IMG/VR virus record: IMGVR_UViG_3300042988_000546 | Location: 1-35,053 of that record | DNA length: 35,053 nucleotides | Reading direction: 5' to 3' (one strand) | From: a virus | In this document: positions 1-35,053 of the stretch, piece by piece | Layout of the letters: each line of letters opens with the position of its first letter | Numbering within the stretch: the stretch's first letter is position 1 | The notes under the pieces: generated by a model | The model's input: only the letters and a program-made list of their open reading frames with translations | What the model was told of the DNA's origin: nothing | The model's database searches: none | Position numbers and translations under genes: made by a program

Positions 1-80
1 GGGTATTCGTTACGTGCACGGTCAATGATAACATGCCGTGAACTTTCGTACTGTAGTTGGTCTAAGATGCTTGGTTTCAT
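1..80 (-). CDS. Duplicated 5' end of the hypothetical gene at 34638-34988
   Basis: These 80 bases repeat 34909-34988 exactly and encode the first 27 residues (MKPSILDQL..) of the hypothetical protein whose complete copy is at the other end of the window. This is the redundancy of a circular or terminally overlapping assembly, not a second gene. The start codon is the complement of 78-80. The gene is the first phage backbone gene after the cassette array in the direction of transcription. Confidence 0.85.
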   Translation of the reverse strand, partial: MKPSILDQLQYESSRHVIIDRARNEY

Positions 81-110
81 TGCGTTTTATTTGAAGGGCG
101 GTTATTTATG

Positions 111-124
111 CGTTACCTGCCATT
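111..124 (+). other. attI-like simple core site at the head of the cassette array
   Basis: The sequence CGTTACCTGCC carries the same GTTR core found at the right end of every attC-like site below. No palindromic arm lies to its left in 1-110. A core without a stem at one end of an array is what an integron attI looks like. The next bases belong to cassette 1, and in the alternative end of the contig they belong to cassette 3. Calling it attI is inference, because no integrase gene is adjacent. Confidence 0.6.
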
Positions 125-637
125 TTGAAGTCCGACATAGTAACCTTTTAATTGACAATTTTTGAGTGCTTGACAATTCTGCTCACCATAAGCAAACAAA
201 ACAACACCTCTCATTATTGATACAGGCGACATATCCATTCTTGTAAACTTTGGTCTGCCTTTCAATAAATACATTCCGTTTGCTTTTTTCAATCCGTATT
301 CTTGAAACCAATCTGTATCGGTAGAATTTAGCACTAATGCAATACCGTTTCCGTGTTTAGCAAGTTTTTTAATAAACGGCTTCGGATTTGAGTATGGCGG
401 ATTAAGCCAAACTCTACCCTCCCATTTTTCAACCAATCCGTCATTAGGCAAAGAAATGATTCTGTTTGCTGTTTTGTGCCATTGTAAACCACAAGGGTCT
501 AAATCAAATACTCCAAAATTACCAATTAAATTAAGCGGAGTAAGTGTTATGTTTTTATCTTCAACCGTATGATAAACAGCAGGTAACAATGTATTGCCAC
601 AATCAGGGCTGACAGTTGTATTTTCAACATTATTCAT
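113..637 (-). CDS. dam: Cassette 1: phage-type DNA N6-adenine methyltransferase (Dam family)
   Basis: The 174-residue product is predicted to methylate adenine in DNA using S-adenosylmethionine. A DLDPCG segment (about residues 46-51) and the catalytic NPPY motif (WLNPPYS, about 79-85) match the small phage Dam-like family. In phages such enzymes usually protect DNA from host restriction. The only plausible start lies in the loop of the downstream attC site, so residues of the CGNTLLPAV type near the N-terminus are encoded by the attC left arm and are probably not part of the fold. The TAA stop is formed by the TTA of the GTTA core at 112-115. Function is confident from the motifs; the target sequence is unknown. 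Confidence 0.85.
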   Translation of the reverse strand: MNNVENTTVSPDCGNTLLPAVYHTVEDKNITLTPLNLIGNFGVFDLDPCGLQWHKTANRIISLPNDGLVEKWEGRVWLNPPYSNPKPFIKKLAKHGNGIALVLNSTDTDWFQEYGLKKANGMYLLKGRPKFTRMDMSPVSIMRGVVLFAYGEQNCQALKNCQLKGYYVGLQNGR

Positions 638-710
638 AAATCATCTTTTGTAAGTTATTAGAGTTTGTATCGCTATGCCCTGCCTTCGGCAATACAGCAC
701 GTTAGCAGCA
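578..710 (+). repeat. attC-like site A (end of cassette 1)
   Basis: The inverse core AAC is at 585-587 and the core GTT at 701-703. Outer arms TGTATTGCC (590-598) and GGCAATACA (688-696) are perfectly complementary. Inner arms are AGGGC (605-609) and GCCCT (677-681). The left arm carries GCTGACAG. The inverse core matches the cassette's own start at 112 in 9 of 10 bases. The loop holds the start codon of the cassette 1 gene. Confidence 0.85.
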
Positions 711-714
711 ATAA

Positions 715-1002
715 CTACTCTCCGTTCCACCAGTGAGTAATCCCTGCGTCTTTTGCCATATAATACCAAACATTATGGTCAGACACGGCACTTTCAAATT
801 CATTGCCGTCTTTGTCTTTTACCTTGTATAGTGTATATCCTTGCATAATGTCAATGGCACACATCATTGGCAAATATTCTTCAATACTTAACCAACCTTT
901 CGGACGAGTATCAGGTGGAAAATATTTATCAATTTCTTCCTGTGTCATATTTGCCAAAGCCTCGTCTAACTTTCGGCTCATTTCTTCTAAATCAAGTGCC
1001 AT
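715..1002 (-). CDS. Cassette 2: hypothetical acidic protein
   Basis: I do not recognise this protein. It begins MALDLEEMSRKLDEAL, with an acidic and probably helical N-terminal half, and ends with an aromatic-rich tail (HNVWYYMAKD..THWWNGE). I chose the ATG at 1000-1002. The frame is open up to a TTG at 1029, but that would add LLAAV-type residues encoded by the attC inverse core. It is the sole gene of its cassette, and the whole cassette is missing from the junction seen at the contig's 3' end. Confidence 0.7.
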   Translation of the reverse strand: MALDLEEMSRKLDEALANMTQEEIDKYFPPDTRPKGWLSIEEYLPMMCAIDIMQGYTLYKVKDKDGNEFESAVSDHNVWYYMAKDAGITHWWNGE

Positions 1003-1017
1003 ATAATTTACCGTTAC

Positions 1018-1116
1018 TGCTGCTAACAAGGTATTGGCAATACCCGCTTGACAGCTTGTTTATAATTTAAAGTTTCTACTATGCGGGCATCGCCAATACC
1101 CGAACCGTTACCTGCC
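1018..1116 (+). repeat. attC-like site B (end of cassette 2)
   Basis: The inverse core AAC is at 1025-1027 and the core GTT at 1107-1109. Arms GGTATTGGC (1030-1038) and GCCAATACC (1092-1100) are perfect, with inner CCCGC (1043-1047) and GCGGG (1083-1087). The inverse core 1018-1027 is complementary to the cassette's own start at 701-710 in 10 of 10 bases. The left arm carries CTTGACAG. Confidence 0.85.
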
Positions 1117-1404
1117 ATTAAAAGACAGACAACATTCAGGGATAATTGACCCTATATTTTTGTAACCAGAAACAACTTCATAAGCATCATACATTTTTTT
1201 ACCTGCTCTATCAATCACACAATCTGCACAACTGCATTTATCAATAGTCCCTGTAATGCAAGTTCTATATGGATATTTTTTGACAATTATCTGTTCTCCT
1301 TCCATGTTTTGAAACCAATGGTTAACCCATTCTTTAGTATTGACAATAACGGCAGGTAACAAGCAGTTTTGCAAAAGGCTGGCTGACAAATAAAGTTTCT
1401 TCAT
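1108..1404 (-). CDS. Cassette 3: hypothetical cysteine-rich protein
   Basis: The 98-residue protein has no family I recognise. It has a cysteine cluster (CITGTIDKCSCADC, about residues 49-62) plus a CC pair near the C-terminus, suggesting metal binding or disulfides. The frame opens in the attC loop (MKKLYLSASLLQN..) and reads through the inverse core as CLLPAV. An internal ATG at MEGEQII is the alternative start. The TAA stop comes from the GTTA core at 1107-1110, giving the C-terminus NGR, the same ending as cassette 1. In the alternative contig end this is the cassette placed first, next to the attI-like core. Confidence 0.65.
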   Translation of the reverse strand: MKKLYLSASLLQNCLLPAVIVNTKEWVNHWFQNMEGEQIIVKKYPYRTCITGTIDKCSCADCVIDRAGKKMYDAYEVVSGYKNIGSIIPECCLSFNGR

Positions 1405-1491
1405 TTATAAATCTATTTAACTTTAGTAATAGGGTGAGCTAAGGTTTTTCAAATACCAGCCCTTCGCAAAGCTGACAGAACGTTGGCGTTC
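1351..1491 (+). repeat. attC-like site C (end of cassette 3)
   Basis: The inverse core AAC is at 1358-1360 and the core GTT at 1482-1484. Arms CAGTTTTGC (1364-1372) and GCAAAGCTG (1466-1474) pair with one G-T. Inner GGCTGG (1377-1382) pairs with CCAGCC (1456-1461). The inverse core matches the cassette's own start at 1107-1116 in 10 of 10 bases. GCTGAC is present. Confidence 0.85.
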
Positions 1492-1696
1492 AGTTTAAAC
1501 CGACATCATCATGCCCTAAAATGTGCAATATTGGTTCACCTATTTTTTGAGCCGAACTATTTATTTTTTCAAGATTAGTATAATCAACAGGTATTCCATT
1601 ACATTCTTCATGTGCAAATACTTGTGACAAATCTCTCATATCAAATTCTCGCCCACAAGAGTTACAATTGATTTTGTGTTGTTTATCGTTTGACAT
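1490..1696 (-). CDS. Cassette 4: small putative zinc-finger protein
   Basis: From the ATG at 1694-1696 the product is 68 residues. It has CNSCGREFDMRDL (about residues 11-23) followed by FAHEEC, a Cys/His arrangement typical of a small zinc-binding finger, so metal or nucleic-acid binding is possible. The frame is open further upstream through the attC left arm to 1765 (MYKCPIAFRH..), but MSNDKQHK is the more natural start. It is the sole gene of its cassette. No specific function can be given. Confidence 0.65.
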   Translation of the reverse strand: MSNDKQHKINCNSCGREFDMRDLSQVFAHEECNGIPVDYTNLEKINSSAQKIGEPILHILGHDDVGLN

Positions 1697-1703
1697 AAAA
1701 CCG

Positions 1704-1842
1704 AACCGCCAACAAGTGTATTGCTGCAATAGCGGGTGACGGAACGCTATTGGGCATTTGTACAATATTGTACTTTAGTATTTCAATTTAGCTGCGTCAA
1801 GTAATGCCGCTACTGCAAAGCAATACCTAAACGTTAGCGGTT
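1704..1842 (+). repeat. attC-like site D (end of cassette 4)
   Basis: The inverse core AAC is at 1711-1713 and the core GTT at 1833-1835. Arms GTATTGC (1718-1724) and GCAATAC (1820-1826) are perfect, with inner TAGCGG (1730-1735) and CCGCTA (1807-1812). The left arm carries GGGTGAC. The match to the cassette's own start at 1482 is 7 of 10, the weakest in the array, but the 7-base core itself is perfect. Confidence 0.8.
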
Positions 1843-2197
1843 ATTTTTTATTGGCAATTTCCCATTGTTCAGCCTCTGCATATTTTGGATGCCAAAATGA
1901 ATACCAAAATTTTCTTTGCTCACCATTTACAAATGCAATAATGCTCTTATCGTGAAGACAATACCCGTTTAATGCTAGGTTAGCACCTCTTATCATAAAG
2001 TCTGTACCATACCACCCGCTTTGTGGGTCATATTTATCAATAAGGTCGATTACTTCATTATTTTCTAAAAGCCATTTGCAAAGTAAGTCAAAGGTTTCAG
2101 GGGCAATTTTTTGATAACGCTTTTTTAAATATTTACCATCGTTGCCGTCACATTGGACATGCTGCAAACCGTCTCTAAATTCTTGAATAATTTTCAT
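1841..2197 (-). CDS. Cassette 5: hypothetical protein
   Basis: The 118-residue soluble protein begins MKIIQEFRDGLQHV and is rich in aromatic residues (WYGTDFMIRG, KFWYSFWHPKY). I see no known motif, signal peptide or membrane segment. Unlike several neighbours, its ATG lies outside the attC stem, about 30 bases before the inverse core, behind an A/T-rich leader. The TAA stop follows the GTTAGCGG core by a few bases. Confidence 0.65.
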   Translation of the reverse strand: MKIIQEFRDGLQHVQCDGNDGKYLKKRYQKIAPETFDLLCKWLLENNEVIDLIDKYDPQSGWYGTDFMIRGANLALNGYCLHDKSIIAFVNGEQRKFWYSFWHPKYAEAEQWEIANKK

Positions 2198-2227
2198 TTT
2201 TTATTTTTTTATAGTTTTGACTAAAAC

Positions 2228-2299
2228 AACCGCTAACATTGCATTACCGCCACTACGGGGCGACACCCTTGCGGCGTTAATGCACCAACGTTATGTGCA
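2228..2299 (+). repeat. attC-like site E (end of cassette 5, compact form)
   Basis: The inverse core AAC is at 2235-2237 and the core GTT at 2290-2292, so the site spans only about 70 bp. Arms are GCATTA (2241-2246) and TAATGC (2278-2283), with inner CGCC (2248-2251) and GGCG (2273-2276). The inverse core matches the cassette's own start at 1833-1842 in 10 of 10 bases. It has no long loop, and the cassette 5 start codon lies outside it. Confidence 0.8.
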
Positions 2300-2302
2300 A
2301 GG

Positions 2303-2482
2303 CTACAATCCGAGTTCTTTAACGCGTACCCATTCATCAATAGACAGTTCTCTACTATACAATAAATGTATTTCTCTGCCAAGTTCAATTTCAATAGCCA
2401 TAAATGCTTCCAATGAGCTTACTTCTGCAAATTGAGTTACATATTTGCCGTCACGCAAAAATGTTAAATGATACCTTTTCAT
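2303..2482 (-). CDS. Cassette 6: small hypothetical protein (59 residues)
   Basis: This short gene fills the only cassette that would otherwise seem empty. It runs from an ATG at 2480-2482 (MKRYHLTFLRDGKYVTQF..) to a TAG at 2303-2305 and ends ..VRVKELGL. Its start, stop and A/T-rich leader sit exactly as in the neighbouring cassettes, which is the main reason to accept it. The pattern of alternating charged and hydrophobic residues looks like a small folded alpha/beta protein. No family is recognised. The overlapping plus-strand frame reads through an attC site and is rejected. Confidence 0.6.
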   Translation of the reverse strand: MKRYHLTFLRDGKYVTQFAEVSSLEAFMAIEIELGREIHLLYSRELSIDEWVRVKELGL

Positions 2483-2519
2483 TTCGTTTTAAATTAAATT
2501 TAGTGCTGATAAACCGCCC

Positions 2520-2656
2520 AGCACATAACAGCGGTTTGTAGCAAAAAGGGGTGACGTGCTACAATCGTCATTTATTGTTCTAATCAGCAGTAGTGCAAGG
2601 CTGAAACTGTGTACTTGCAATCCCTTTCAGCTACAAGCCGCAAAACGTTGTAAGTA
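2520..2656 (+). repeat. attC-like site F (end of cassette 6)
   Basis: The inverse core AAC is at 2527-2529 and the core GTT at 2647-2649. Arms GCGG plus TTGTAGC (2531-2542) pair with GCTACAA plus CCGC (2630-2641). Inner AAAGGG (2545-2550) pairs with CCCTTT (2622-2627). The left arm carries GGGTGAC. The match to the cassette's own start at 2290 is 9 of 10. Confidence 0.85.
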
Positions 2657-2663
2657 ATGGCTA

Positions 2664-2915
2664 TCAGAAAGGACATTCTTCAATTTCCTTAATTGATTCC
2701 ATTAGGTAAACAAGTTCATTATTCATTGCTTGTGGGAAATGTGCTGACCATTTCATAATTTCTTTTGTTGATTGATAAAGCCTTATTAATTTAATAGCTT
2801 CATTATAGCTTAACAAAATACCTTCTTGCATCACCCAAGAAACATCATCCATGCTTCCATTTACTTGTATTGCATAATCAATGCTTTTTTGCATTCTTTC
2901 AATAATATTTGACAT
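2664..2915 (-). CDS. Cassette 7: hypothetical helical protein
   Basis: The 83-residue protein (MSNIIERMQKSIDYAIQ..) looks mostly helical and soluble, with an acidic C-terminus (MESIKEIEECPF). No known motif is visible. The start codon lies about 50 bases before the attC inverse core, so none of the coding sequence comes from the recombination site. It is the sole gene of its cassette. Confidence 0.65.
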   Translation of the reverse strand: MSNIIERMQKSIDYAIQVNGSMDDVSWVMQEGILLSYNEAIKLIRLYQSTKEIMKWSAHFPQAMNNELVYLMESIKEIEECPF

Positions 2916-2965
2916 AAAATTTAAAGTTTATAATTGTTATCAAAAATCATTTAACTAACCGCCGC

Positions 2966-3081
2966 TACTTACAACAATGTATTTGTGCAATACAGGCTGA
3001 CAGTTATCTATTGAGCTAATACACTATTCAGCTTTTGTACTTAACATGCCTATCCTGCACAAATACGGCACGTTATGTGCC
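2966..3081 (+). repeat. attC-like site G (end of cassette 7)
   Basis: The inverse core AAC is at 2973-2975 and the core GTT at 3072-3074. Arms GTATTTGTGCA (2979-2989) and TGCACAAATAC (3056-3066) form a perfect 11-bp stem. The left arm carries GGCTGACAG. The inverse core TACTTACAAC matches the cassette's own divergent start GTTGTAAGTA (2647-2656) in 10 of 10 bases, a striking compensatory change. Confidence 0.85.
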
Positions 3082-3082
3082 A

Positions 3083-3286
3083 TTAATCCCACTCCTCCTT
3101 ATCGGCTTGACTTTGTGCCATAACGGCAATAATTTGACGTTCACGCTCTGTAAACTGTTCCCAGTTATTTTGCCAATCATAAGGAACATAGTTTCTCCAA
3201 TCGTGGACTTTTGATGTGTTTTTAAAATCAGGATTGTTAATATCAATCATTGACAACTCTGCTGTGTAATCTTGAAATAAGTTCAT
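3083..3286 (-). CDS. Cassette 8: small hypothetical protein
   Basis: From the ATG at 3284-3286 the product is 67 residues (MNLFQDYTAELSMIDI..). It is tryptophan-rich in the middle (DWRNYVPYDWQNNW) with a charged, helical C-terminal half. The frame stays open to 3313 through the inverse core (read as LLCAV), but no ATG is found there. No family is recognised. It is the sole gene of its cassette. Confidence 0.6.
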   Translation of the reverse strand: MNLFQDYTAELSMIDINNPDFKNTSKVHDWRNYVPYDWQNNWEQFTERERQIIAVMAQSQADKEEWD

Positions 3287-3301
3287 CGTTCTAAGTTTAA
3301 C

Positions 3302-3402
3302 GGCACATAACAAGGGTTTTGCGTAATAGCCCTATCAAGTGTCGTGGTTAATTTTAATTTTTTACTAAGGGCTACTACGCAAAGCCCCGAACGTTAGCGG
3401 AA
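3302..3402 (+). repeat. attC-like site H (end of cassette 8)
   Basis: The inverse core AAC is at 3309-3311 and the core GTT at 3393-3395. Arms GGGTTTTGCGTA (3314-3325) and TACGCAAAGCCC (3376-3387) pair over 12 positions with one wobble. The inverse core matches the cassette's own start at 3072-3081 in 10 of 10 bases. The TGAC motif common to other left arms is missing here. Confidence 0.85.
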
Positions 3403-3405
3403 ATA

Positions 3406-3660
3406 CTAAAGACAGTCCCTTGACAATCTTTCATAATCTCTTTTTACGCCCATACTTTTTTCAATAGCTTTTATAAAATCATCAATACATCTTCTATCAA
3501 TCGTAAAACCATACTCCCATTCGCAAAAGGTATCATCTACTTTGACAATAAAAGTACTTCCGCTAACATTGCATTGCTGCAATTTTGGCTTGACGTTGTT
3601 AGCTTCATCTATTGTACTATTTTCATCAGCAGTACCGGCTGGACGTTCAATGTTGTTCAT
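3406..3660 (-). CDS. Cassette 9: hypothetical protein starting inside the attC loop
   Basis: The 84-residue protein starts MNNIERPAGTADE in the loop of attC site I, reads through the left arm and inverse core (..LQQCNVSGS), then enters a hydrophobic-charged segment (TFIVKVDDTFCEWEYGF). No ATG exists between the inverse core and the conserved-looking body, so the loop start is the only obvious one. The opening MNN(V/I)E is shared with cassette 1, consistent with related attC loops supplying start regions. Function unknown. Confidence 0.6.
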   Translation of the reverse strand: MNNIERPAGTADENSTIDEANNVKPKLQQCNVSGSTFIVKVDDTFCEWEYGFTIDRRCIDDFIKAIEKSMGVKRDYERLSRDCL

Positions 3661-3764
3661 TTGAATTTATTTTAAACTTTTTGTAATTATATTTAACTTG
3701 ACAGTACCCAGCAGACAGAACTCGGAATGACACAACTGACAGCAATGCTGTTTCGTTAGCGGCT
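3558..3764 (+). repeat. attC-like site I (end of cassette 9, long loop)
   Basis: The inverse core AAC is at 3565-3567 and the core GTT at 3755-3757. Arms GCATTGCTG (3571-3579) and CAGCAATGC (3740-3748) are perfect. At about 200 bp it is the longest site in the array, and its right half contains extra TGACAG copies, so it may be a composite. The inverse core matches the cassette's own start at 3393-3402 in 10 of 10 bases. Confidence 0.8.
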
Positions 3765-4173
3765 ATTTAGACCCTGCGTAATCAAACCGCCAGACGGGAT
3801 AACCATTTGACACGTTACAGTATTCCATAACCAAGACAAGTTTTAACTTCTTATCATCAGTCCACTCTTGTAGAAACGACTGTATTTTTTCAGAGCTTCT
3901 ACTATTCCAATAGTCGCCACTTTCGCCAAAATATTTTTTCATTAACGACCTTGTTTTTTCATAATCCCATTGCAATAGTCTATCGCTGTAAATAGTGCCG
4001 TTAGCATCTTCATTCTTGCCATTTCGGTAAATCACAAAGCCATCGTAACTATACGGGTATTCGTATTTTGACTTCTTAACGGGTCGGTCAAATTCATCTA
4101 CTTGACCAAAAAAACAGCCGCTAACAAAAGTATTGCCGCTATTGGGGCTTGACGATAAAGTGCTGTGCTTCAT
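3763..4173 (-). CDS. Cassette 10: hypothetical protein starting inside the attC loop
   Basis: The 136-residue protein opens MKHSTLSSSPNSGNTFVSG, of which SGNTFVSG is encoded by the attC left arm and inverse core. The body is rich in Tyr, Trp, Lys and Asp (VKKSKYEYPYSYDGF, KYFGESGDYWNS) with a C-terminal LKLVLVMEYCNVSNGYPVWRFDY segment split by turns. No family is recognised. No ATG is available downstream of the inverse core in frame with the body. The stop lies a few bases beyond the core at 3755. Confidence 0.65.
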   Translation of the reverse strand: MKHSTLSSSPNSGNTFVSGCFFGQVDEFDRPVKKSKYEYPYSYDGFVIYRNGKNEDANGTIYSDRLLQWDYEKTRSLMKKYFGESGDYWNSRSSEKIQSFLQEWTDDKKLKLVLVMEYCNVSNGYPVWRFDYAGSK

Positions 4174-4257
4174 ATTTTTAATTTTAATTTAGTAATAAGG
4201 TTGAACTGTTGTTTTTTAATGCCCCAACAGCAGGGCAATACCTGTTCGTTAGCAGCC
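4116..4257 (+). repeat. attC-like site J (end of cassette 10)
   Basis: The inverse core AAC is at 4123-4125 and the core GTT at 4248-4250. Arms GTATTGCC (4130-4137) and GGCAATAC (4234-4241) are perfect, with inner TTGGGGC (4142-4148) and GCCCCAA (4221-4227). The left arm carries GCTTGACG. The match to the cassette's own start at 3755-3764 is 10 of 10. Confidence 0.85.
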
Positions 4258-4593
4258 ATGTGTACGAGCATACTCCTGTTCGACACAACTAAGCAAATGC
4301 CCTAACGAGTGTTCCATTTTATATTCAGTTCCTGCTATTGACGCTTTTTGTTTTAGATATACGTTAGTGTAATACTCCTTTAGTTGTTGTAAAGTCGAAT
4401 TGTCCCAACACTCTTGACAAGTTGCAAAAGTGCCACTTCTTTCATCTGTGTACACCGATTTGCTTTTGCAGTGATTCCAAGGCATCCCACATTTTTCACA
4501 ATAAGAGTAGGAAGGGTTTAAAAACCTCAAGACGGCAGCTAACATTTGCTTGCCAAAAATCGGGCTGACACCCATGTTTTCATCTTTAGTCAT
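4249..4593 (-). CDS. Cassette 11: putative zinc-binding protein (two CxxC pairs)
   Basis: The 114-residue protein has YCEKCGMPWNHC (about residues 31-42) and, some 20 residues later, ATCQECWDN. This is a two-CxxC arrangement of a zinc ribbon or treble-clef type. That suggests metal-stabilised binding of nucleic acid or protein, but no precise family is recognised. The longest frame starts in the attC loop (MTKDENMGVSPIFGKQ) and passes through the inverse core as MLAAV; the ATG of MLAAVLRF is the alternative start. The TAA stop is the GTTA core itself. Confidence 0.65.
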   Translation of the reverse strand: MTKDENMGVSPIFGKQMLAAVLRFLNPSYSYCEKCGMPWNHCKSKSVYTDERSGTFATCQECWDNSTLQQLKEYYTNVYLKQKASIAGTEYKMEHSLGHLLSCVEQEYARTHGC

Positions 4594-4671
4594 ATATTGT
4601 ACTTTAAATTGTTAATTAAGTTTACGGATTTCTATTGCCCGCCCTTCGGCAAGCAGTTAACGTTAGTGGCA
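4534..4671 (+). repeat. attC-like site K (end of cassette 11)
   Basis: The inverse core AAC is at 4541-4543 and the core GTT at 4662-4664. Arms TGCTTGCC (4547-4554) and GGCAAGCA (4648-4655) are perfect, with inner CGGGC (4561-4565) and GCCCG (4637-4641). The left arm carries GGCTGACA. The match to the cassette's own start at 4248-4257 is 9 of 10. Confidence 0.85.
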
Positions 4672-4672
4672 A

Positions 4673-4879
4673 TTAGTTTGCTTTCTTTACCCATGTAGTT
4701 CCGTTATAACATTCACAATGGTCTAACCCTTCAACTTTATCTTTGCCACAATAATCGCAAACTAACTGTTCGCTTAGCCCACTAACATCAAATAAACGCA
4801 AAAGCAAGTCTGTTGCGTATTCAGGCGTTAAGTGGTTGTGGTAAAGTTTTTTTGCTATGTCTAAAATTTCCTCTTTCAT
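4673..4879 (-). CDS. Cassette 12: small putative zinc-binding protein whose coding sequence forms the attC arm
   Basis: The 68-residue protein has a helical N-terminal half (MKEEILDIAKKLYHNHL..) and a C-terminal CDYCGKDKVEGLDHCEC motif typical of a small zinc knuckle or ribbon. The left arm of attC site L is not an add-on here. It is the coding sequence for residues LLLRLF, in the middle of a normal-looking protein, and the ATG is inside the loop. This differs from all other cassettes. Partner and function are unknown. Confidence 0.65.
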   Translation of the reverse strand: MKEEILDIAKKLYHNHLTPEYATDLLLRLFDVSGLSEQLVCDYCGKDKVEGLDHCECYNGTTWVKKAN

Positions 4880-4915
4880 TTTGCTTCTGCGTTTATTTGC
4901 ATTCCGTTAGCGGTA
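4777..4915 (+). repeat. attC-like site L (end of cassette 12, atypical, made from coding sequence)
   Basis: The inverse core AAC is at 4784-4786 and the core GTT at 4906-4908. Arm 4789-4807 pairs with 4881-4899 at 18 of 19 positions (CAAATAAACGCA against TGCGTTTATTTG), the longest stem in the array. It shares neither the GCAATA-type arm nor the TGAC motif of its neighbours. The core complementarity to its own start at 4662 is 8 of 10. Confidence 0.75.
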
Positions 4916-5128
4916 ATTGTGAGTAGACAGGTACAGCTTAATAGAATTATTATACAAATTGACAATTGTCTGCTGTGCTTCTATTGCTAATTTTCGCAAC
5001 TCAATAATTCTATCAGCCTCGTCAGCAGGCAATACGTCATCAGACCTTTCTTCCAATTTTTCTAACTTAATTTGTGCTTCAACTTTACCTCTGTAAAGTG
5101 CATCTAAAAATTCTAATTCAATTTCCAT
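4907..5128 (-). CDS. Cassette 13: hypothetical coiled-coil protein
   Basis: The 73-residue protein is highly charged and helical (EAQIKLEKLEERSDD.., ADRIIELRKLAIEAQQ), probably a short coiled coil or helical hairpin. The ATG lies 33 bases before the inverse core, outside the stem. The TAA stop is formed by the GTTA core at 4906-4909, so the C-terminus is ..HNYR. No family is recognised. A small regulator or inhibitor role would be speculation. Confidence 0.65.
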   Translation of the reverse strand: MEIELEFLDALYRGKVEAQIKLEKLEERSDDVLPADEADRIIELRKLAIEAQQTIVNLYNNSIKLYLSTHNYR

Positions 5129-5160
5129 TTTGGTTATTTTTTATGGTTTATAAAAACAAC

Positions 5161-5261
5161 TACCGCTAACAAAGCATTGTTGCAATATGGGCAGACAGTT
5201 CGCTGCTCAACATTAGTATTCCAAATACCCATCCTGCAACAATGCACGAACGTTAGCGGCT
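5161..5261 (+). repeat. attC-like site M (end of cassette 13)
   Basis: The inverse core AAC is at 5168-5170 and the core GTT at 5252-5254. Arms GCATTGTTGCA (5174-5184) and TGCAACAATGC (5235-5245) form a perfect 11-bp stem, followed by ATGGG against CCCAT. The left arm carries GGCAGACAG. The match to the cassette's own start at 4906-4915 is 10 of 10. Confidence 0.9.
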
Positions 5262-5639
5262 ATTAATCAGACTATCAAACGCCCTCTTTTCATAAGGGGT
5301 AAACTGGTTTGGTAGCAATTTTAAGTTATTCCAGTAATTGTCATCAATCTGTTTTTCCAGCCCAATAACGCTGACAGAAAAAACATTATCTGCTGTTCTT
5401 TCAGCTTGTTTAATAGTTTCATCAACGTCTTCGTAATCTCCCCCAGTCATGTGCTGACTTGCAGCCCTTACGGTTTCAGTTATAAATTTTCTGTGTTCAG
5501 CCTTCAAACTATCAGGAACATACTGAATAGTTATTAGTGAATACTTTGGATACTTTTCGTTGTTGCAGCTTGACATAACAGCCGCTAACAATAAAATTGC
5601 CGCAAGTACGGATGATGAATGTAATTTGAACTTTTGCAT
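5253..5639 (-). CDS. Cassette 14: predicted lipoprotein
   Basis: The 128-residue product has a clear lipoprotein signal: basic start MQKFKLH, a hydrophobic stretch (VLAAILLLAAV) and a lipobox ending at the cysteine of MSSC (about residue 25). It should be exported, lipidated and anchored in a membrane. The mature part is soluble and charged. A membrane lipoprotein made by a phage often acts in superinfection exclusion, but nothing here proves that. Much of the signal peptide (LLLAAV) is encoded by the attC arm and inverse core, so the start in the attC loop is needed for export. The TAA stop is the core. Confidence 0.75.
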   Translation of the reverse strand: MQKFKLHSSSVLAAILLLAAVMSSCNNEKYPKYSLITIQYVPDSLKAEHRKFITETVRAASQHMTGGDYEDVDETIKQAERTADNVFSVSVIGLEKQIDDNYWNNLKLLPNQFTPYEKRAFDSLINSR

Positions 5640-5719
5640 ATCTATTTTGCTTTTGATTGTTAATTAAACTTAGGTACTACTATGCCGTACCTGACGGCAA
5701 TTTCTGAACGTTACCTGCA
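5580..5719 (+). repeat. attC-like site N (end of cassette 14)
   Basis: The inverse core AAC is at 5587-5589 and the core GTT at 5710-5712. Arms AAATTGCCG (5594-5602) and CGGCAATTT (5695-5703) are perfect, with inner GTACGG (5606-5611) and CCGTAC (5685-5690). The match to the cassette's own start at 5252-5261 is 10 of 10. TGAC occurs in the right arm rather than the left. Confidence 0.85.
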
Positions 5720-6433
5720 AGCTGCGACAGCGTTCAACCATTGAGCAGCCATTGCATTTGCGACACCTTCAAATGTTTTAGAACTTTCTTTTTGACTAAT
5801 ACTTTTTGGTGTTGCTTTTTGCCCTCGTTTTTTACCACCAGTATTTGAAGGCAAATAAGGTACATAATTAGTTTCAAATTTTGTTGCCGTTAATAATGGT
5901 AAATTTTTTAACCAAAGCAAGGTGCGTTTGCTAAACTTATGCCCAAAAGCGTATGGCTCTATTCTTTGGCTATGTTTTGGCAAATTAAATATTTTCATTG
6001 GTGTTGGATTTTCAACGGCTATATGCTTTATTGGGGCATTCAACATTGCTTCAAAAAAGGCTTTACCTTGTAATCCTAATTCATACCTTTCAGCATTTAA
6101 TTTACCACCTTTGTAAAGCCATCTTGCACCTGCTTTACTTAAATAAGTACAAGGTGGGTGAGCAATCATTAAATCATATTTACCACTATACGCTTCTTTA
6201 ATTGCATCACCTTGTATATGCCATTGTGGATAGCCGCCACTACATTCTTGAATATCGCAACTAAAGGCTTCTACACCTAAAGCTCTAAATGCTTTACAAA
6301 CCGTTTGACTTTCTTCACAAGCGACTAAGACACGAAAGCCAGCAGGTAACAAATGGTTTGCCAAAATAGGGACTGACGAATCCGCTATTGGCATTTGTAA
6401 TTCTATTTGGCTGTATAACATTTTGCTGTTCAA
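5711..6433 (-). CDS. Cassette 15: DNA cytosine-methyltransferase-like protein
   Basis: The 240-residue protein opens its domain with RVLVACEESQTVCKAF (SAM-binding motif I region). It then has HPPCTYLS with the Pro-Cys of a C5-cytosine methyltransferase, and VENPTP at the position of the ENV motif. Phage proteins of this kind are commonly annotated as DNA cytosine methyltransferases. It probably modifies DNA against restriction, pairing with the adenine methyltransferase in cassette 1. It is small and lacks an obvious target-recognition domain, so specificity and activity are uncertain. Translation starts in the attC loop (MNSKMLYSQIEL..), and ANHLLPAG is attC-encoded. The TAA stop is the core at 5710-5713. 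Confidence 0.7.
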   Translation of the reverse strand: MNSKMLYSQIELQMPIADSSVPILANHLLPAGFRVLVACEESQTVCKAFRALGVEAFSCDIQECSGGYPQWHIQGDAIKEAYSGKYDLMIAHPPCTYLSKAGARWLYKGGKLNAERYELGLQGKAFFEAMLNAPIKHIAVENPTPMKIFNLPKHSQRIEPYAFGHKFSKRTLLWLKNLPLLTATKFETNYVPYLPSNTGGKKRGQKATPKSISQKESSKTFEGVANAMAAQWLNAVAACR

Positions 6434-6482
6434 ATTGACGTTAATAGATTTCCCTACTTCGGCAAGTCGAAACGTTGGCTGA
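6341..6482 (+). repeat. attC-like site O (end of cassette 15, last site of the array)
   Basis: The inverse core AAC is at 6348-6350 and the core GTT at 6474-6476. Arms are TTTGCC (6357-6362) and GGCAAG (6461-6466), with inner TAGGGA (6367-6372) and TCCCTA (6451-6456). The left arm carries GACTGACG. The match to the cassette's own start at 5710-5719 is 9 of 10. The bases after GTT belong to the phage backbone next to ssb. Confidence 0.85.
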
Positions 6483-6517
6483 AAATAAAATAGTAGTAGT
6501 GCTATCTTACTTTCAGC
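6478..6517. other. Short inverted repeat between the last core and ssb
   Basis: GCTGAAA (6478-6484) pairs with TTTCAGC (6511-6517). Two readings are possible: a weak terminator downstream of ssb (no U-tract is visible), or the worn remains of an inverse core belonging to a lost 16th cassette, because the repeat mirrors the core GTTGGCTGAAA. Confidence 0.35.
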
Positions 6518-6525
6518 ACATTAAA

Positions 6526-6894
6526 CTAAAAAGGCAAATCAGTATTATCATCAACAGGGCTGCTATTATTAGGCTGCTGCTGGTCTTGCGGCCTGCTGCC
6601 AGTTAGTGATATTTCATTTGCCCAAATTGTATAATCAAGTTTAGCTTCGCCATCTTGTGATTTATACACCTTTGGGTCTGGTCTGCCCCATATATTAAGC
6701 GATTGTCCTTTCTTTAAAAACCGCTCTAAATTTTCATTACTAGTGCAAATATTAACCCAAAGTGTTTTCTTATTGCCGTCTTTGTCTTTGCCTAAAGAAA
6801 CTGCAAAAGGAAATTTTAAAAATGGTTTACCACCGATAGTTACTTTTTCTGCATCCTTGCCTATATTACCATAGGCGAAAACTTTAATTGACAT
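6526..6894 (-). CDS. ssb: Single-stranded DNA-binding protein
   Basis: The 122-residue protein has the SSB OB-fold (MSIKVFAYGNIGKDAE.., LWVNICTSNEN.., SLNIWGRPDP) followed by a short Gln/Pro/Asn-rich linker and the acidic tip DDNTDLPF that recruits partner proteins. It binds phage single-stranded DNA during replication and recombination. It is the last backbone gene before the cassette array in the direction of transcription. Since folded single strands are the substrate in integron attC recombination and SSB counteracts such folding, its position beside the array may matter, but that is inference. Confidence 0.9.
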   Translation of the reverse strand: MSIKVFAYGNIGKDAEKVTIGGKPFLKFPFAVSLGKDKDGNKKTLWVNICTSNENLERFLKKGQSLNIWGRPDPKVYKSQDGEAKLDYTIWANEISLTGSRPQDQQQPNNSSPVDDNTDLPF

Positions 6895-7030
6895 TTGATT
6901 GATTTTTACGTGTGATTTGTAAATAGTTATTAATTAGCTCGATAATATCTTTAGGTGCTAAGAAAACGTTTTCTTTATCGAAAGGCTCGATTGCCTTTAA
7001 CAGAAAGTCGATTAGGTGCTGGTCTGACAT
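6884..7030 (-). CDS. Small hypothetical protein (48 residues)
   Basis: The ATG is at 7028-7030 (MSDQHLIDFLLKAIEPFDK..) and the TAA at 6884-6886. It overlaps the 3' end of the upstream gene by 19 bases and the ssb start by 11 bases, the tight packing usual in phage operons, and it fills the only gap between them. The product looks helical and soluble, and no family is recognised. Accepted on packing and codon-like composition rather than homology. Confidence 0.5.
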   Translation of the reverse strand: MSDQHLIDFLLKAIEPFDKENVFLAPKDIIELINNYLQITRKNQSNVN

Positions 7031-32491: not shown

Positions 32492-33320
32492 TTTTCATCC
32501 ATTTTTTAATTGTTAAATGAACACTAATATAATTTTTGGATAAGTTTGGCCTATTAGCTAGTGACTCAAGCTTTTCTACAAATTTTGCGTAATAAGAAGG
32601 GATGGTATCAATTTTTATTTTGTATTCTAAAAATTGGTCAATAGTCAATTGCTTTTCAATTTCCCGCAATTCTGGTATTTCAGCATCTATCCATTGATTG
32701 AATTTTTCAAAGCTTTCAATCTGTTGTTGTGTGTAGTTCGATTTATCGAACTCTAAATACAATTTATTCTTTTCATTTAATTTCTTTTCTTTTCTTTTCT
32801 TTTCTTTTGCATCTTTTAGCATCGGTTGAGCATTGCTTGGTTCATGCGCTTGCATATCTTGAGCATTGCTTGGTTCATGCGCTTGCATATCTTCAATTGC
32901 TTTATTAACATCAACAACTGGACTTTCTTCTTTTTCTAGCTCATTATGAGTATCATTCTTTAACTCTAGCGTAGGATGTTTTTTGCTTTCCCACCTTTTT
33001 TGCGCTGCTAATGATGCCTTATTTTTCATCATTTCCATGCTTTGCTTTAGCCTAAGACTGAAAAACATATTATTTTCAACTACAAATAAATTGTAATTAT
33101 TAATAACTGTTTTTATTTTTTCAGCGCTTGTATTCCAATATCTAGCGTAAATAGTAACTACTGATATTGGAAGAGTATATGTATCTTCCTGCCTTAACTT
33201 TTCAATTAAAGCCCAAAATATGCCATATCCTTCCATCCCTAGTTGGTCAATAAGTAGTAGGCATTTTGGGTCATCTTGAGCATTACTATCATGGCTAAAG
33301 TAGTATGCGCTATTTTTCAT
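32484..33320 (-). CDS. Phage replication initiation protein (primosomal, DnaD-like)
   Basis: The 278-residue protein starts with a winged-helix-like region found in many phage replication proteins (AYYFSHDSNAQDDPKCLLLI, then GMEGYGIFWALIEKL), has a charged low-complexity linker, and a C-terminal helical domain. It probably loads the helicase encoded next. The linker contains an exact 11-residue tandem repeat and a Lys/Glu-rich stretch from TTTTC-type repeats, regions likely to vary in length. Confidence 0.75.
   Translation of the reverse strand: MKNSAYYFSHDSNAQDDPKCLLLIDQLGMEGYGIFWALIEKLRQEDTYTLPISVVTIYARYWNTSAEKIKTVINNYNLFVVENNMFFSLRLKQSMEMMKNKASLAAQKRWESKKHPTLELKNDTHNELEKEESPVVDVNKAIEDMQAHEPSNAQDMQAHEPSNAQPMLKDAKEKKRKEKKLNEKNKLYLEFDKSNYTQQQIESFEKFNQWIDAEIPELREIEKQLTIDQFLEYKIKIDTIPSYYAKFVEKLESLANRPNLSKNYISVHLTIKKWMKND
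32781..32893 (+). repeat. Tandem repeats inside the replication protein gene
   Basis: A 33-bp unit occurs twice exactly (32828-32860 and 32861-32893), encoding the 11-residue block DMQAHEPSNAQ twice. Just before it lies a run of five TTTTC-type units (about 32781-32808) encoding Lys/Glu/Arg. Both fall in the interdomain linker. Confidence 0.9.
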
Positions 33321-34669: not shown

Positions 34670-34988
34670 TTTGTTTGTATTTTAAAGCTCTTTGTAAATA
34701 GTTTCTTTTGTAATATTCGATGCTTAGTTTCTTGCCGTACTCTTTGCACATAAACCAGTAATCGAAAGCGGGGCAAGGGTAATCGAATATCCACCCGTCA
34801 AGCCAGTATCTATGCCAGCACGTCCACGGGGCTATTAGCTTGGTAACTGTTACCTTGCTATTCCCAACGTTTATGTACCAGCATTCTTTGTCTTTTTTCT
34901 TTTTTACTGGGTATTCGTTACGTGCACGGTCAATGATAACATGCCGTGAACTTTCGTACTGTAGTTGGTCTAAGATGCTTGGTTTCAT
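34638..34988 (-). CDS. Hypothetical protein next to the cassette array
   Basis: The 116-residue protein (MKPSILDQLQYESSRHVIID..) is rich in Trp, Tyr and Lys (LIAPWTCWHRYWLDGWIFDY), with a basic C-terminal end (LQRALKYKQNAAN). No known motif is visible. In the circular map it lies directly downstream of the attI-like core and array, so it is the first backbone gene reached by transcription through the cassettes. No promoter is evident in front of it. Confidence 0.65.
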   Translation of the reverse strand: MKPSILDQLQYESSRHVIIDRARNEYPVKKKKDKECWYINVGNSKVTVTKLIAPWTCWHRYWLDGWIFDYPCPAFDYWFMCKEYGKKLSIEYYKRNYLQRALKYKQNAANTLRATR

Positions 34989-35053
34989 TGCGTTTTATTT
35001 GAAGGGCGGTTATTTATGCGTTACCTGCCATTAAAAGACAGACAACATTCAGG
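34909..35053 (+). repeat. Terminal direct repeat (copy 2) with alternative cassette junction
   Basis: 34909-35032 equals 1-124. 35019-35053 equals 1106-1140. The two matches share the 14-bp core region CGTTACCTGCCATT, so this end records the attI-like core joined directly to cassette 3 with cassettes 1 and 2 absent (995 bp skipped). Confidence 0.9.

Follow-up and report, generated by a model that had tools for sequence, protein, structure and literature searches.

An integrase-less, integron-type array of 15 gene cassettes in a phage genome and a tyrosine recombinase linked to related viral arrays

The DNA analysed here (the window) comprises all 35,053 bases of an IMG/VR record. It represents the circular genome (~34.9 kb) of a siphophage-like virus, with annotated genes that include a terminase, a portal protein, the major capsid protein, a DnaB helicase, an SSB and an ERF annealing protein. 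No tyrosine recombinase is encoded in the 35,053 bases, and a plasmid search gave no DNA similar to the window. Positions 112-6483 hold an array of 15 cassettes, Table 1. On the + strand, a lone GTT core at 112 is followed by 15 palindromes with AAC...GTT ends (16 core sites), and each interval contains one small gene, in every case on the - strand. The initial annotation had described 15 such palindromes with one small gene between neighbours, occupying ~18% of the phage genome, and both statements hold.

Table 1. Coordinates of the cassettes and flanking features of the array.
Feature	Position (strand)	Gene (strand)	AAC/GTT starts	Remarks
Left flank of array	1-124 (+)			copy at 34909-35032 (terminal overlap of contig); closes with lone core GTTACCTGCC (112-121), where attI would sit
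Cassette 1	112-700 (+)	113-637 (-)	585/701	Dam-type DNA methyltransferase; ATG within stem; attC stem 588-700
Cassette 2	701-1106 (+)	715-1002 (-)	1025/1107	attC stem 1028-1106
Cassette 3	1107-1481 (+)	1108-1404 (-)	1358/1482	ATG within stem
Cassette 4	1482-1832 (+)	within 1490-1765 (-)	1711/1833	CxxC motif
Cassette 5	1833-2289 (+)	1841-2197 (-)	2235/2290	weak phrog_14725
Cassette 6	2290-2646 (+)	2303-2482 (-)	2527/2647	
Cassette 7	2647-3071 (+)	2664-2915 (-)	2973/3072	divergent core GTTGTAAGTA/TACTTACAAC
Cassette 8	3072-3392 (+)	within 3083-3313 (-)	3309/3393	
Cassette 9	3393-3754 (+)	3406-3660 (-)	3565/3755	longest stem, 187 nt
Cassette 10	3755-4247 (+)	3763-4173 (-)	4123/4248	ATG within stem
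Cassette 11	4248-4661 (+)	4249-4593 (-)	4541/4662	ATG within stem
Cassette 12	4662-4905 (+)	4673-4879 (-)	4784/4906	
Cassette 13	4906-5251 (+)	4907-5128 (-)	5168/5252	
Cassette 14	5252-5709 (+)	5253-5639 (-)	5587/5710	lipoprotein-like N-terminus starting within stem
Cassette 15	5710-6473 (+)	5711-6433 (-)	6348/6474	DNA methyltransferase (phrog_757); start codon within stem
Terminal core GTTGGCTGAA	6474-6483 (+)			distal array end; adjoins SSB gene (6526-6894, -)
Circular overlap	34909-35053 (+)			final bases fuse left flank to cassette 3 start

Past its terminal overlap, the contig enters cassette 3, not cassette 1 (35019-35053 = 1106-1140). All that the two junction paths have in common is a stretch of 14 nt at the core (CGTTACCTGCCATT). 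The simplest reading is that the sample contained a genome variant without cassettes 1 and 2, although this is a single assembled junction and a chimera is possible.

The ends of the cassettes had been noted to be complementary to their own starts rather than to those of their neighbours. Re-scoring bears this out: nine cassettes score 10/10, four 9/10 and two 8/10 (the values of 10/10 and 9/10 are as first reported; of the two lowest, given before as one 8/10 and one 7/10, the second differs trivially). The within-cassette matches sum to 142/150, compared with only 99/150 when the cores on either side of one palindrome are paired, and 100,000 random re-pairings of the window cores gave a mean of 102.4 (sd 5.0) and a maximum of 127. 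The match also extends past the 10 bases first scored. Position 11 is mismatched on the + strand throughout (0/15 paired), and positions 12, 13 and 14 are paired in 13, 12 and 14 of the 15 cassettes. For 290 distinct viral cassettes from 80 loci, of which positions 1-10 had served in selection and 12-15 partly so, pairing was 89-100% at positions 1-9, 75% at position 10, 3% at position 11, 87-94% at positions 12-14, 70% at position 15 and ~36% beyond. An earlier set of 96 cassettes, in which positions 11-15 lay outside the selection, gave the same pairing pattern at these positions.

Stem lengths in the viral cassettes peak near 40, 80 and 118 nt. Those of the window range from 52 to 187 nt and none belongs to the conserved 40-nt class, which combines spacers of 2 and 5 nt with a perfect inner stem of 11 bp and the loop CATTAAAACGA and shows no extrahelical base. 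Core and inner stems were found at the sites; the detailed structure given here is that of the 40-nt class. Within inner stems, top-strand A-C mismatches, equivalent to G-T pairs on the complementary strand, are more frequent than the opposite case (231:77), a wobble skew that suggests folding of the bottom strand. A strict R-box pattern (RYYYAAC...GTTRRRY) picked out no true site in the window; because known Vibrio control cores deviate from it too, we do not count this as a difference. Rfam models at gathering scores gave no match in the window.

The initial annotation regarded such an array in a phage as exceptional, which we can no longer maintain, since dozens of viral contigs carry arrays of the same type and a Bacteroidota phage whose attC sites look, by eye, to be of this type, P12002L, had already been published (PMC9892861). 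It also named an absence of related arrays with swapped cassettes as grounds for rejection, and such arrays were found. Eleven cassettes match between different contigs at 83-100% identity (some of the pairs derive from related arrays), and the similarity runs from the GTT core to just past the stem. From these borders, the mobile unit is GTT...AAC together with its stem. Window cassette 6 shares 257 bp, at 92% identity, with a second viral array (L190); the start border lies at the core, and the L190 record also encodes the ~265-aa recombinase described below. Through a DNA search the same cassette was also tied to a pair of uncultured phages (634 and 642 kb); both carry such arrays and neither encodes the recombinase. 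With the 634-kb phage the window has 59 bp of the cassette leader in common. The conserved leader pattern located 60 viral stretches, 32 of them with cassette links (none on reversed sequence). Its 36 matches in GTDB contigs are about the number expected by chance for 17 bases and included one isolated core pair. The 40-nt site motif occurs in many viral contigs, and among the matches listed 46/79 loci show cassettes. Searches with other genes of the window phage led to few arrays: none beside the ERF homologues (L001-L080), 3/74 for DnaB homologues and 1/6 for relatives of its phosphoesterase, which are distant and include no close sister phage. The SSB homologue search found none.

In 6 of the 32 array-bearing viral records, many of which are fragments, the array adjoins a gene for a tyrosine recombinase of 265-269 aa. 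A search with this recombinase alone returned 80 loci, 58 of them with arrays (null 1/80) that invariably lie 5' of the enzyme; where the array is lacking, the enzyme is often near a contig end. The proximal cassette end could be resolved in 41/54 loci, and in ~37 of these 41 the array closes with a lone core, located 52-79 bp ahead of the start of the recombinase, with a TATTATATATA-like motif after it. Where it was resolved, the boundary between array and recombinase is mostly marked by a conserved lone core, AAC|TATTATATATA, that we regard as a putative attI. At the lone core of the window (112) the TATTATATATA motif is absent, unlike in the recombinase-encoding phages. With no tyrosine recombinase of its own, the window array is CALIN-like, an integrase-less member of a phage-wide integron-type system.

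The best NCBIfam model for the recombinase is the XerA-like NF040815 (168-192 bits, under the cut-off of 220). The integron integrase model TIGR02249 gives a match split in two, with ~150 of 265 bits, also under the cut-off. The KDR and HxLRH motifs are 58-60 aa apart, compared with 108 aa in Vibrio IntIA, and the IntI insertion is therefore absent. The top PDB match of the predicted structure (mean pLDDT 87.9) is nevertheless 2a3v, the V. cholerae IntI4-attC complex, followed by XerA. In a tree the phage enzymes form one clade (support 100/99) outside the XerC/D-like rows; a single bacterial row, whose attI is of the phage type, also falls in it. Chromosomal enzymes of Bacteroidota, often with an extra N-terminal domain, adjoin this clade, although long branches make the deeper placements uncertain. 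The nearest GenBank phage proteins have <36% identity to the recombinase.

Among the 290 phage cassettes, 265 genes run antisense to attC and 2 sense, and in the window all 15 are antisense. The stem consequently sits 5' of the gene. Among cassettes with stems of at least 60 nt, an ATG in the frame of the gene lies inside the stem in 81/229 (shuffled stems: mean 22.6, maximum 37). Thirteen family matches among 100 cassette proteins are to DNA methylases (C5, N6/N4, Dam, D12); other families have one or two matches each and the majority of the proteins none. Two of the window cassettes, 1 and 15, encode methyltransferases.

Taken together, the sequence data make it very likely, in our judgement, that the array was made by integron-type site-specific recombination, with the ~265-aa phage recombinase or a relative, which here would act in trans, as the likeliest enzyme. 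That the cassettes are of integron type, as first proposed, is borne out by core complementarity within each cassette, by a stem that travels with it and by swapped cassettes elsewhere. In our model, a cassette extends from its GTT core through the end of the palindrome after the matching AAC core. In the excised circle the start and end cores would meet, and the bottom strand could then fold into an attC hairpin. A tyrosine recombinase would cut this hairpin, probably at the edge of the GTT core, and insert the cassette either at a lone core (attI) or at the core of another cassette. The enzyme that adjoins arrays elsewhere, or a relative of it, is the candidate for this step. Since the window phage has none, we propose that a co-infecting phage or a host provides it in trans. 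Against this model weigh the missing enzyme and attI motif in the window, the small share of array-bearing records that encode the recombinase (6/32), its absence from the two largest phages and the fact that no window stem is of the 40-nt class. The cassette genes lie in the direction of phage transcription and so could be expressed by read-through.

A different origin would be the transfer of part of a chromosomal integron of Bacteroidota, mobilized by the host enzyme only, that is, a classical CALIN in a phage. The initial annotation had pointed to such an integron as a possible source, and part of this stands. Related enzymes at E 1e-60 or better occur in 98/395 Bacteroidota genomes, and the four chromosomal loci that we examined have, beside related recombinases, arrays with the same extended core as the phage arrays; the lack of an enzyme in the window phage would fit as well. 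By gene orientation, however, the window is closest to the phage arrays, as 17/20 cassette genes at the four chromosomal loci (by longest ORF) are sense to attC. Cassette 6 has a counterpart in another virus, and the 40-nt motif of so many viral contigs was found in 0/395 Bacteroidota genomes. We therefore regard an origin from the host alone as improbable.

It is still harder to account for the array without a site-specific enzyme. The palindromes could be terminators or mRNA hairpins, as the stems do form strong hairpins on the transcribed strand, and the core match could stem from homologous recombination or module shuffling, for which the ERF-type annealing protein of the phage might be invoked. 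Such a combination leaves unexplained why cores match within and not between cassettes, why positions 12-14 pair around a fixed mismatch at 11, and why shared cassettes have exact borders and arrays a conserved lone core and a constant link to a tyrosine recombinase; the frequent in-frame starts in stems also speak against terminators. We give this account almost no credence. More serious, though in our view still unlikely, is the possibility that the contig-end junction arose as an assembly chimera and that the array is an old, immobile remnant in the window phage. The two paths share just 14 nt and the junction was seen once. The join nevertheless falls exactly at a core, and 14 nt is less than usual assembly k-mers, so that reads spanning the junction probably existed. 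The window cores, moreover, are still intact, which argues against a remnant.

Integrons are a known bacterial gene-capture system, and our data suggest that phages run one of their own. We lean towards a broader proposal, drawn from comparative sequence data: Bacteroidota phages of up to several hundred kb may possess a separate integron lineage. Such a lineage would combine a short integrase free of the IntI insertion and an attI motif of its own with cassette sites that have no extrahelical bases, and its cassettes would be inverted, often with the start codon of the gene inside the attC stem. Its shared cassette pool, of methyltransferases and small proteins, would pass from one phage to another, unrelated one, and those that do not encode the enzyme, the window phage among them, would borrow it in trans. 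The phage examples that we found described earlier are integron pieces and attC clusters that lack such an enzyme. If the proposal is correct, a phage-linked integrase, its own attI and a shared cassette pool would permit phages to exchange accessory genes fast, among them DNA methyltransferases, which could weaken host restriction. An enzyme without the IntI insertion that is paired with short sites lacking extrahelical bases would also be a test case for the recognition of folded single-stranded sites. Search tools that demand the insertion would miss the phage recombinase.

The only direct precedent that we found is the description of phage CALINs, integrase-less attC clusters with methyltransferase cargo in virulent phages (Qi et al., 2023, PMC9892861), a survey of GenBank phage genomes with standard attC tools. 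According to the same text, one of two tested attC sites of the Polaribacter (Bacteroidota) phage P12002L was recombined by IntI1. By eye, the P12002L region has cores and a loop of the window-family type, although the site recombined by IntI1 need not be among them. The window array differs in having 15 cassettes, and the available part of that paper reports no linked recombinase of this kind, extended core or attI motif. We found no report of the recombinase-bearing array family in the open-access literature; as that search placed preprints outside its scope, novelty is provisional. Xer-type recombinases (archaeal XerA, XerC/D, NF040815) resemble the phage enzyme in length and include its best NCBIfam score, XerA-like, but the phage enzyme lies outside the XerC/D-like rows, is tied to cassette arrays and has a predicted fold that ranks IntI4 first. 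According to the IntegronFinder authors, who reported one complete integron in Bacteroidetes proper, the extra domain is what distinguishes IntI (PMC9024848).

The classical integron frame of the initial annotation fits less well than its identification of the cassettes. Integrons, for example the Vibrio chromosomal integron in phage MK672802, are among the closest known systems. In a Vibrio integron used as control, core pairing fades past ~position 9, whereas in the phage arrays it extends over 14-15 nt and is interrupted by the constant mismatch at position 11. The phage system further departs from integrons in an enzyme without the IntI insertion, in 40-nt sites without an extrahelical base and in genes antisense to attC. 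It is integron-type, but two defining features of a complete integron, an adjacent IntI-type integrase with the IntI-specific insertion and cassette genes in the attC direction, away from attI, are not found in it. What it has in common with integrons is a tyrosine recombinase, with a predicted fold nearest to IntI4, beside a lone core, one-gene cassettes, a cassette end core complementary to its own start, and a palindromic site carried along by each cassette.

The extended core of the phage arrays recurs in Bacteroidota chromosomal arrays (L382, L386, L387 and L388), where attC direction matches the usual gene orientation. The adjoining recombinases (345-368 aa) carry an extra N-terminal domain. 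Elsewhere, one bacterial chromosome (L376) encodes a recombinase of the phage clade accompanied by the phage-type attI motif; no array was found within 13 kb of it. Arrays of the window's type are also present in two uncultured huge phages, and the entire records of both lack a PF00589 recombinase.

Features in the window and related records
Record	Position or size	Feature
LR745206 (L081), huge phage	634 kb	array
LR756502 (L082), huge phage	642 kb	array
L376, bacterial	6124-6930	268-aa recombinase
L393, phage P12002L	28900-32600	CALIN region
Window	32819-32884	33-bp unit, two tandem copies, 91% alike
Window	32484-33320	gene containing both copies

Attachment-site stems of the viral cassettes cluster near 40, 80 and 118 nt. 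Cassette proteins of four loci (L286, L287, L315 and L273) share a leader resembling MKDxKHIxxFNExxENLNISDVSxS, whose coding sequence reaches up to the core; unrelated sequences follow.

In the published CALIN region of Polaribacter phage P12002L (Qi et al., 2023; PMC9892861), the methyltransferase genes lie antisense to the sites, and inspection by eye identified both the phage-array core type and the CATTAAAACGA loop.
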